Positions 4,145-11,174 of a stretch of DNA of 64,000 nucleotides are shown piece by piece. The DNA is taken from NCBI RefSeq assembly GCF_020181595.1, contig NZ_CP084028.1:3837665-3901664 (forward strand), in the 5' to 3' direction. Every line of letters starts with the position of its first letter. Within the stretch, counting starts at the first letter, position 1. Both the position numbers and the translations under genes were made by a program. The notes below the pieces were generated by a model. It was not told the DNA's origin, did no database searches, and worked only from the letters and a program-made list of their open reading frames with translations. This stretch comes from [Mycobacterium] vasticus (GTDB taxonomy: Bacteria; Actinomycetota; Actinomycetes; Mycobacteriales; Mycobacteriaceae).

Positions 4145-5911
4145 ATGCGCACCCGTTTGCCCGCCCTGCCCTGGGTGTGTTGGGCGGCACTGGCGCTGAT
4201 CGCCGCGCAGCTGGCGGTCCGGGCGGTGGTGGCGTTCGGTGGCTACTTCTACTGGGACGACCTGATCCTGATCGGCCGGGCCGGCACCCACGATCTGCTG
4301 TCGGCGTCGTACCTGTTCGACGATCACGACGGCCACGTGATGCCGGGGGCGTTCGGCGTGGCCGGTGCGCTGAGTCGGCTGTGGCCGCTGCAGTGGGCGG
4401 CGCCGGCGGCCAGCCTGGTGGTGCTGCAGCTGCTGGCATCGCTGGCACTGCTGCGGGTGCTGTGGGTGATCCTGGGCTGGCGGCCGGTGCTGCTGGTGCC
4501 GTTGACCTTCGCGTTGTGGACGCCGCTGGGCCTGCCGGCGTTCGCGTGGTGGGCGGCGGGGTTGAACTCGCTGCCGATGTGCGCGGCGATGGCCTGGGTG
4601 TGCGGTGACGCGATCCTGTTGGCGCGCAGCGGTAATCAGCGCTATGCGGTGAGCGCAGCGCTGGCCTATGCGGGCGGTCTGTTGTTCTTCGAGAAGGCCG
4701 CGGTGATTCCGTTCGTGGCGTTCACGGTGGTGATGCTGCTGCGTTATGTGGCCGGCGAGCATGGCGTGCTGAGCGGGGCGTGGCGGGGCGGCGTCCGGTT
4801 GTGGACGGCCTTGTTGGCGCTGACCGTCGGCTGGATCGCGGTCTACCTGGCGGTGGTCAACCAGAAGCGCTGGAGTTTCGATCTGGAGATGACGCGTGCC
4901 CTGCTGTGGCGTTCGGTCACCCACGGCATCGTGCCGAGCCTGGCCGGTGGCCCCTGGGCCTGGGCGCGCTGGGCACCGGCCTCACCGTGGGCGTTGCCGG
5001 GCCCGGTGGTGATGACGCTGGGCTGGGTGGTGCTGGCGGGCCTGCTGGTGGTGTCGCTGCTGCGCAAGCGCCGGCTGGTGCCGGTGTGGCTGGCTGCGGC
5101 CGGCTACGCGGTGGCCTGTCAGGTCCCGATCTATCTGATGCGGTCCTCGGCGTTCACCGCACTGGAGCTGGCCCAGACCCTGCGGTATCTGGCCGACCTG
5201 GTGGTGGTGCTGGCGATTCTGGGGGCGATCGGGTTGTGTGCCCCGAACCGGAACGGTGCACCGGCCCGCACCGTGGCGGTTGCCGGTCTGGCCGTCGCCT
5301 TCACCGCCAGCAGCCTGTATTCGACATGGACTTTCCTGGCCAGTTGGCGGGTGGACCCGGCGCGGGCGTATCTGATCAATGCCCGCCACGACCTGGCCGC
5401 CGTTGACTCGGATGCGCCGCTGCTGGACCAGGAGGTGGATCCGATGGTGCTGCAACGGGTGGTCTACCCGGAGAACCTGGCCAGTCACCTGTTCGCACTG
5501 GTTCGCGATCGACCCGAATTCGCTTCGGCAACACCGCATCTGCGGATGTTCACCAGCGAGGGACGGCTGATCGACGCGCAGGTGACCTGGGTGCGGTCCC
5601 TGGTCGCCGGGCCGGTGCCGCAATGCGGCTACCTGGTACAGCCGGACCAGCCGGCCGTCCTCGAACTGGACGGCTCGCTGCTGCCGGCCGACTGGACCGC
5701 CGAGCTCAACTACCTGGCCAACGTCGACGGGGCCATGACGTTGTCGCTGTCCGACGGGCCGCCGGTGCGGGTGCGGGTGCGCCCGGGCCTCAACCGGGTC
5801 TACGTGCGTCTTCCCGGGGCCGGCAACAGCATCACCGCGCGCGCCGACACGGCCGCGCTGTCGGTGTGCATCGCGGTCGGCCCGGTGGGCTTCCTGGCGC
5901 CGGCACGGTGA
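4145..5911 (+). CDS. Polytopic membrane protein, Rv3635-like
   Basis: Integral membrane protein of 588 residues, in the position and close to the size of M. tuberculosis Rv3635. The first two thirds alternate long Leu/Val/Ala/Trp segments with short charged loops, giving roughly ten membrane helices. The C-terminal 150-180 residues look soluble and probably extracytoplasmic. The early acidic motif YWDDL in the first loop resembles the loop-1 motif of GT-C glycosyltransferases, but no donor or acceptor can be named. The start is ATG at 4145. Its TGA overlaps the ATG of the next gene by one base, so it is probably translationally coupled to the Pls-like synthetase. Confidence 0.8.
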
Positions 5912-9834: not shown

Positions 9835-11174
9835 GCAAACCCGTCAAGAAGAGCACCGCGAAACCCCGAACCGAGCCGCCCGTCATCGACCCCTATCTGC
9901 CCGGCAGTGGTAACGCCGGCTACCGGGTGTCGCGCTACGAGCTGGACCTGGAGTACAAGGTCGCCAGCAACCGGCTGTCGGGGACGGTGACCATCACCGC
10001 GACCACGACCACCGCACTGCGGGTGTTCACCCTGGACCTCGCCGAGCCGATGTCGGTGTCCAAGGTGCGGGTCAACGGCCGCGCCCCCACCCGGTTCGCC
10101 ACCGCAGGCGCCAAGCTGCGGATCACGCTGGCCGACCCGTTGCCCGCCGGGGCCGCCCTGGTGGTCAGCGTCCGCTACTCGGGATCCCCGCGGCCACGCG
10201 ACACCGTTTGGGGGGAAGTCGGTTTCGAGGAACTGACGGACGGCGCCCTGGTCTCCGGACAGCCCAACGGCGCTCCGTGTTGGTTCCCCTGCGATGACCA
10301 CCCTGCTGCTAAGGCGAGCTACCTGGTCCAGATCAGCACCGACAGCCCGTATCGCGCGGTGGCCAACGGCGAGCTGCTGTCGCGGCGGGTCCGGGCGGGG
10401 CGCACCACCTGGGTCTACGAGCAGCCTGAGCCGACACCGACCTACCTGGTCACCCTGCAGATCGGCCAGTACGTGACGCACCGACTGGCCGGGTCCGAGG
10501 TGCCGATCAACGCGGTGCTGCCCGCCCGGCTGCGCACCGAGTTCGACCACGACTTCGCCGACCAGCCCGAGATGATGGCGCTGTTCGTGCGACTGTTCGG
10601 CCCCTACCCGCTGGCTGCCGGCTACACCGTGGTGGTCACCGACGACAACCTGGAAATCCCCCTTGAAGCACAGGGCATTTCGATCTTCGGCGCCAACCAC
10701 TGCGACGGCACCGGCGGCTCAGAGCGGCTGATCGCCCACGAGCTGGCGCATCAGTGGTTCGGCAACAGCGTGACGGTGCGCCACTGGCGCGACATCTGGC
10801 TGCACGAGGGTTTCGCCTGCTACGCCGAATGGCTGTGGTCGGAGCATTCCGGCGGACGCAGCGCCGACCAATGGGCCCAGCACTACCACCGCCAGCTGGC
10901 GGCGCTGCCGCAGGATCTGCTGTTGGCCGATCCGGGCCCGGCCGACATGTTCGATGACCGCCTCTACAAGCGCGGCGCGCTCACCCTGCACCGGCTGCGC
11001 GTCCTGATCGGGGACGCCGACTTCTTCGCGCTGCTGCGGGACTGGACGACGCGCCACCGGCACGGCAACGCCAGTACCGACGACTTCACCGGCCTGGCCG
11101 CCAACTACGCCAAGGTGTCGCTGCAGCCGCTGTGGCAGGCCTGGCTGTACTCCAGAGCGCTGCCGCCGCAGTAG
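9831..11174 (+). CDS. M1 family zinc aminopeptidase
   Basis: Zinc metallopeptidase of 447 residues. The catalytic motif HELAHQWFGN is followed by LHEGFACYAEWLW, giving the two His and distal Glu zinc ligands (HExxH-x18-E). The N-terminal beta-sandwich begins near YRVSRYELDLEY. It is about half the length of PepN and lacks the large C-terminal helical domain, as in the short bacterial M1 enzymes. No signal peptide is seen; a basic Lys-rich N-terminus precedes the first domain. The GTG start at 9831 overlaps the synthetase stop codon (GTGA), indicating coupled translation. In Streptomyces, poly-lysine synthetases are accompanied by a peptidase that degrades the product, so this enzyme may trim the product of the neighbouring synthetase. 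That link is inference. Confidence 0.88.
   Translation: MSKPVKKSTAKPRTEPPVIDPYLPGSGNAGYRVSRYELDLEYKVASNRLSGTVTITATTTTALRVFTLDLAEPMSVSKVRVNGRAPTRFATAGAKLRITLADPLPAGAALVVSVRYSGSPRPRDTVWGEVGFEELTDGALVSGQPNGAPCWFPCDDHPAAKASYLVQISTDSPYRAVANGELLSRRVRAGRTTWVYEQPEPTPTYLVTLQIGQYVTHRLAGSEVPINAVLPARLRTEFDHDFADQPEMMALFVRLFGPYPLAAGYTVVVTDDNLEIPLEAQGISIFGANHCDGTGGSERLIAHELAHQWFGNSVTVRHWRDIWLHEGFACYAEWLWSEHSGGRSADQWAQHYHRQLAALPQDLLLADPGPADMFDDRLYKRGALTLHRLRVLIGDADFFALLRDWTTRHRHGNASTDDFTGLAANYAKVSLQPLWQAWLYSRALPPQ

Follow-up and report, generated by a model that had tools for sequence, protein, structure and literature searches.

Organization of the locus

The window, by which we mean the whole 64,000-nucleotide stretch of [Mycobacterium] vasticus DNA that was analyzed (contig NZ_CP084028.1, positions 3,837,665 to 3,901,664), contains three adjacent genes on the same strand, as an earlier note on this DNA had stated (Table 1). 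They encode a membrane protein, a putative poly-amino-acid synthetase (Pls) and an M1 metallopeptidase (PF01433/PF17900), whose start overlaps the synthetase stop by the 4 nt that the note had described. In 81 of 113 distinct loci, a possible peptidase start falls between -4 and 0 relative to the stop codon of the synthetase.

Table 1. Features of the pls locus in the window
Feature	Position	Strand	Evidence or description
Upstream neighbour, not operon part	4145..5911	+	588-aa protein, several hydrophobic segments
pls, putative epsilon-poly-lysine-type synthetase (A, carrier and membrane condensation domains)	5956..9834	+	TIGR02353, AMP-binding, PP-binding, 7wew match
Adenylation (A) domain	6034..7434	+	Residues 138-604 of P0002; pocket code DAESIGTVVK
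Carrier (PP-binding) domain	7477..7665	+	PF00550, 6.6e-12; residues 619-681 of P0002
Terminal membrane domain, 3 x (helix pair + left-handed beta-helix): C1, C2, C3	7723..9831	+	
pldII-like M1 metallopeptidase	9831..11174	+	PF01433 + PF17900
GTGA overlap, peptidase start with synthetase stop	9831..9834	+	4 nt

The listed open reading frame of the synthetase (P0002, whose residues are numbered from window position 5623) opens at 5623, with its initial 289 nt lying over the upstream gene in a different frame. We compared the start region in 14 Mycolicibacter sequences, 12 of which could be anchored at the N-terminus (L053 and L055 were not anchored). Since the GTG at the place of window position 5956 is kept in 12/12 of the anchored sequences, and in L051 a stop codon separates the places of ATG 5911 and GTG 5956, the synthetase gene most likely spans 5956-9834, with ATG 5911 as a possible alternative start. 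With the GTG start, the upstream gene and the synthetase are separated by a 44-nt gap; the 1-nt overlap between them that the earlier note had proposed requires ATG 5911 and is not upheld.

Two PPE-family genes are located directly downstream of the peptidase gene (11229-12539 and 12860-13852); in the second, the match to the PPE domain is confined to its first half. They are followed by the overlapping reading frames of an OmpR-type response regulator and a histidine kinase (13881-16126), for which no NCBIfam model scored above its own cut-off among the best 25 matches of each.

Domain architecture and predicted substrate of the synthetase

The Pfam search (E-value up to 0.01) matched the synthetase to four families, AMP-binding, PP-binding and two hexapeptide families, and to no condensation or thioesterase family, which agrees with the single A domain and single carrier domain read earlier from the sequence. 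The A domain of Table 1 is delimited by the beginning of the AMP-binding match (residue 138) and the last residue of the 7wew alignment (residue 604), and the carrier motif GGGSL lies at residues 643-647 of P0002. The six membrane helices form three pairs with three beta-helix units between them, again as anticipated; in a VIA-align fold comparison of the terminal domain, the matches hardly covered the C1 unit. In NCBIfam, an adenylation family exceeded its own cut-off, and TIGR02353 matched over essentially the full model (positions 2-695 of 695) with 726.4 bits against a cut-off of 423.1. Together with the match of the A domain to 7wew, this result gives good support to the Pls-type synthetase, and to the poly-amino-acid class of product, that had been proposed. 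Histidines 836 (C1) and 1337 (C3) of P0002 are among the positions invariant in 117 terminal domains and are candidates for the condensation base.

The best PDB match of the A domain was 7wew, the A domain of Streptomyces albulus Pls, with 643 bits; the runner-up reached 352 bits. On this difference, a siderophore or lipid ligase was ruled out. Based on the GrsA pocket positions, placed by alignment, the ten pocket residues read DAESIGTVVK, identical to those of S. albulus Pls in the 7wew alignment. As the pocket is the same as that of the S. albulus epsilon-poly-lysine synthetase, lysine is the predicted substrate. The exact code occurs in 124 of 126 distinct A domains, L143 departing from it by one residue and L059 by several. 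At the position of Met218 in PosA, synthetases that activate lysine are reported to have alanine, and PDAP synthetases phenylalanine (PMC10522769); the window A domain has alanine at this position.

The M1 peptidase and its signature motif

The peptidase comprises 447 residues, contains both M1 domains and retains the catalytic residues of a metallopeptidase; its best solved relative is the zinc metalloprotease 6a8z (160 bits). H303, E304 and H307 (HEXXH), E326 and Y379 are invariant in the 115/115 relatives compared, each of at least 46% identity. At positions 277-281, the sequence PLEAQ replaces the GAMEN exopeptidase motif, with P277 and E279 conserved in 115/115, A280 in 110/115 and Q281 in 114/115 of these relatives. 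The paralogues encoded away from pls carry ALE(T/S/N)Q at this place in 17/17 sequences from 14 regions. PLEAQ is usable as a signature motif of the pls-associated peptidase, and the substitution next to the glutamate that binds the amine may accommodate an isopeptide-linked chain. The peptidase matches in G164 (with the same coordinates as in G667), G702 and G324 each contain one in-frame TGA.

Hydropathy analysis gave no hydrophobic or membrane segment in the peptidase, and no signal-like start was obvious by eye in its relatives. Since no secretion signal is evident, the enzyme may act inside the cell, and self-protection against polymer that is not exported would be consistent with such a location.

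Conservation of the gene pair

Among 198 sampled mycobacterial genomes, both genes were found in 149, pls only in one (G183), the peptidase only in one (G126, a 63% complete assembly) and neither in 47, with thresholds of 1e-60 for pls and 1e-70 for the peptidase, each of which 150/198 genomes pass. The co-occurrence of the M1 gene in related genomes that the earlier note had in view is thus widespread. With the beta-helix and membrane repeats found and the A domain closest to S. albulus Pls, all three findings by which the note would have been contradicted failed to appear. The peptidase gene directly follows pls on the same strand, 23-140 bp past the terminal-domain match, in 148/148 genomes for which the places of both genes were listed; the 149th, G045, has a fragmented pls and then the peptidase. 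In this genome (L062), pls appears only as three stretches beside the peptidase match, due to either decay or an assembly error.

Within 80 named loci (up to 10 kb on each side), 31 contained both genes and 49 neither. A whole-genome search for those 49 located pls elsewhere in 17 and a peptidase match in 17, of which 16 coincide, and some of the remaining absences may be assembly gaps, as the completeness of these genomes is not given. G685, which bears the M. nebraskense locus L150, has pls without the peptidase, while G680 yielded only a 47% partial match in the peptidase search, taken as a paralogue. G183 and G685 are thus two genomes with pls but without the peptidase.

Outside the genus, 82 pls matches were found in 65 genomes of the order. 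For 44 of these matches, the listing shows an M1 with 46% identity or more no farther than 3 kb downstream; conversely, of the 46 M1s listed at this identity level, 44 stand within 3 kb after pls. In three further pls loci of the order, an M1 is present that the search had not listed, so the list of M1 matches is incomplete. In one family of genomes of 7.3-11 Mb, probably Streptomyces, an M1 with 53-56% identity adjoins pls in 11/12 loci. When 43 loci were compared, the only frames common to all lay within pls and the peptidase gene, considering the 30 largest clusters of frames of at least 120 aa and judging position from example coordinates. A further conserved partner, for example an exporter or a regulator, was rejected, since no other of these 30 largest clusters spans the 43 loci. 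The synthetase and the peptidase are well supported as a conserved two-gene unit.

The pocket code and the peptidase neighbour

Where the peptidase is the next gene, the pocket was of the lysine type in 137/137 distinct actinobacterial loci and carried the exact code in 135; here "lysine-type" denotes DAES(I/V)GTV(V/I)K, a grouping made in this analysis, and the count covers loci in which 1000 bases or more follow the pls stop, shorter ones having been dropped, as were L292 and L293, whose A domain lies in another frame than the terminal domain. Twenty peptidase-adjacent loci fetched later were lysine-type in 20/20, one of them with Val for Ile. The 21 loci without an adjacent peptidase comprised 14 with other full codes (starting with DFEY in nine, DFEC in four and DGES in one), six with the exact lysine code and one with a degenerate code (G183), but the non-lysine share is not a sample estimate, 20 loci being biased: 19 were chosen as the listing showed no M1 for them or for their genome, three of which then proved to have one, and the 20th was chosen since a second pls copy had no adjacent M1. 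The figure of 137/137 is less biased. The A domains with the 14 other codes are 33-38% identical to the window A domain.

In G183 (L059, 3182-7153), the A domain lacks the TSGSTG, YGPTE and GKVDR motifs, the terminal domain is kept, and no peptidase match was obtained at 1e-70 in the genome. L060, which is a second pls copy in G030, and L264 (G685) have an intact lysine code, GGESL instead of GGGSL in the carrier and no adjacent peptidase.

A gene context of Pls unlike that of other synthetases has been noted for single examples (PMC8117764), and the link between pocket and peptidase generalizes this difference. It offers a rule for genome mining: an adjoining M1 of this kind predicts a lysine polymer.

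The upstream gene

The upstream 588-aa protein, called Rv3635-like after the earlier note, matched no Pfam and no NCBIfam family, and a literature search for the name Rv3635 returned no match. Genes of this type were found in 195/198 genomes versus 150/198 for pls, and in 40 loci fetched from the 48 pls-less genomes the galE-like and Rv3635-like genes were both present in 40/40. Considering the 109 genomes in which the places of both pls and the Rv3635-like gene were listed, the latter lies upstream of pls in 11 genomes (the Mycolicibacter group) and 2.4-8.5 kb downstream in 74, both times on the same strand; in 10 genomes it is more than 30 kb distant, and in 14 it sits on another contig. The three-gene set proposed in the earlier note finds no support: the conserved unit is limited to the synthetase and peptidase genes, and the upstream gene is widespread and adjoins them in Mycolicibacter. 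As a component of the operon the Rv3635-like protein was rejected, given its wide occurrence, its variable position and the lack of conservation of the overlapping start; its gene is a neighbour only.

Gain, loss and constraint

In L058, which is on the same contig as the named locus L118 of Mycolicibacter senuensis GF74, the DNA that follows the Rv3635-like gene jumps from near the pls start into the last codons of the peptidase, followed by a PPE gene. This scar records a single deletion that removed both genes. The flanks join at about the ends of the two-gene block in L111, L112 and L122, an arrangement that could reflect either clean loss or earlier absence.

The presence of pls on a quick, single-gene tree of the neighbour protein (80 named loci and the window; pls present in 49, absent in 32) requires at least 15 changes, 11 of them forced by well-supported branches. 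In a FastTree phylogeny, in which groups were assigned by hand and several branches are long, the mycobacterial terminal domains lie on one side of a fully supported branch, opposite 61 others, and the 17 Mycolicibacter copies form a single group. Together, the presence changes and the terminal-domain tree are consistent with a single ancient mycobacterial gene pair that was lost many times and sometimes moved. Genomes without pls include those that bear loci of M. scrofulaceum, M. bohemicum, M. interjectum, M. colombiense and M. palustre, and those with pls include M. gordonae, M. asiaticum, M. simiae and M. szulgai; most absences in the set searched over whole genomes are in slow growers. 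The presence of pls is not simply a fast-grower trait.

Over six comparisons, dN/dS was 0.18-0.26 for pls, 0.23-0.32 for the peptidase and 0.22-0.36 for the upstream neighbour; values of about 0.2-0.3 indicate that pls and the peptidase gene are both under constraint. The two genes were lost together in 10/11 independent pairs (9/11 if the L142 paralogue counts as an M1), but linkage alone predicts the joint loss of adjacent genes, so these pairs are no proof of functional coupling.

Proposed function and alternatives

We propose, with a probability of roughly 0.86, that window positions 5956-11174 are a two-gene epsilon-poly-L-lysine operon of the pls-pldII type. As the pocket and the S. albulus enzyme suggest, the A domain would activate L-lysine with ATP and load it onto the carrier. 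The membrane domain, a predicted pseudo-trimer of left-handed beta-helices standing on six helices, would then repeatedly link the carboxyl group of one lysine to the epsilon-amine of another. The product would presumably be a homopolymer of some tens of residues, as established for the S. albulus and Corynebacterium variabile enzymes, and the M1 peptidase, probably coupled to it in translation, would, by analogy with PldII, shorten or clear the polymer for self-protection or length control. Weighing against this reading are six lysine-type loci without an adjacent peptidase, the two genomes that have pls but no peptidase, the silence of C. variabile in culture, and a peptidase with no evident secretion signal although PldII is reported outside the membrane.

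The family also includes enzymes that polymerize other diamino acids (PMC10522769), and 14 related loci of the order bear other codes; ornithine, diaminobutyrate or diaminopropionate is nonetheless an improbable substrate here, because the window code equals that of S. albulus Pls, and those 14 codes belong to distant A domains, none with an adjacent peptidase. Even less probable is a system of three genes, with the upstream membrane protein serving to export or anchor the polymer. Its gene does stand on the same strand, just upstream or 2.4-8.5 kb downstream of pls, in many genomes, but it is nearly universal in the genus, including all the pls-less loci fetched, it can lie far away or on another contig, its overlapping start is not conserved, and it is not among the frames common to other genera.

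A silent relic, with the genes retained and no polymer made in mycobacteria, is unlikely: the many presence changes, the degenerate copy of G183 and the fragmented copy of G045 speak for it, as does the reported silence of the C. variabile culture (PMC8117764), while the intact motifs, the near-uniform pocket and the dN/dS values speak against it. A chance association of pls with an M1 enzyme that serves as a general housekeeping aminopeptidase is hardly credible. The superfamily is shared with general aminopeptidases, and paralogues of approximately 36-45% identity occur away from pls in the order; nevertheless, its constant adjacency in the genus, the position of 44/46 listed M1s (at least 46% identity) outside it, the link to the lysine pocket, and the Pro and Glu of PLEAQ in place of ALE(T/S/N)Q all argue for a dedicated partner.

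As for the role of the two-gene operon, we consider it possible, though rather doubtful, that epsilon-poly-lysine is an ancestral mycobacterial product of about three quarters of the species, perhaps an envelope polycation and not an antibiotic, restrained by a dedicated intracellular peptidase and repeatedly lost, mostly in slow growers. If the polymer is made, most mycobacterial species own a cationic polymer, which would matter for envelope chemistry, competition and environmental life. Close species with and without the gene pair provide natural comparisons.

Comparison with known systems

The pls-pldII pair itself is already known from Streptomyces and Corynebacterium, and a Nocardia pls has been published (PMC4035055). 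What this analysis adds is the breadth and repeated change of the pair within mycobacteria, the pocket-peptidase link and the signature motif of the peptidase. Among the titles, beginnings of abstracts and text passages covered by a literature search, we found no report of an epsilon-poly-lysine product or operon in mycobacteria, a result that supports novelty only weakly.

The mycobacterial pair most likely performs the same chemistry as those of S. albulus and C. variabile. The S. albulus pls-pldII system is alike in its domain order, pocket code, terminal-domain family and adjacent, coupled metallopeptidase gene. In PMC9223678, pldII is described as translationally coupled to pls, 1404 bp in length (versus 1344 bp for the window gene) and encoding a peptidase that is located outside the membrane and affects chain length, whereas the window peptidase, likened to PldII by gene context and length, has no evident secretion signal. 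The hosts also differ, and the product of the window operon is a predicted one.

In C. variabile, the same two-gene context is called an operon and is described as unlike that of the other three synthetases (PMC8117764). According to the same paper, the C. variabile pls with its peptidase neighbour was functional by heterologous expression, yielding epsilon-poly-lysine of 26-35 residues in S. coelicolor, while the function of the window enzyme is predicted; no product was detected from the C. variabile culture or from C. glutamicum with the gene. As C. variabile is silent in culture, expression may be rare.

More distant members of the family share parts of this organization. PosA of Acinetobacter baumannii, a delta-poly-L-ornithine synthetase, has the three-part architecture and the predicted trio of beta-helices but differs in its substrate, ornithine, and in having Met instead of Ala at the pocket position related to substrate length. 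The poly-diaminobutyrate and poly-diaminopropionate synthetases have a TIGR02353-type terminal domain as well, yet they carry other pocket codes, and the M1 gene that accompanies the lysine-type pls genes was adjacent in 0/14 of their loci, as grouped by codes alone.
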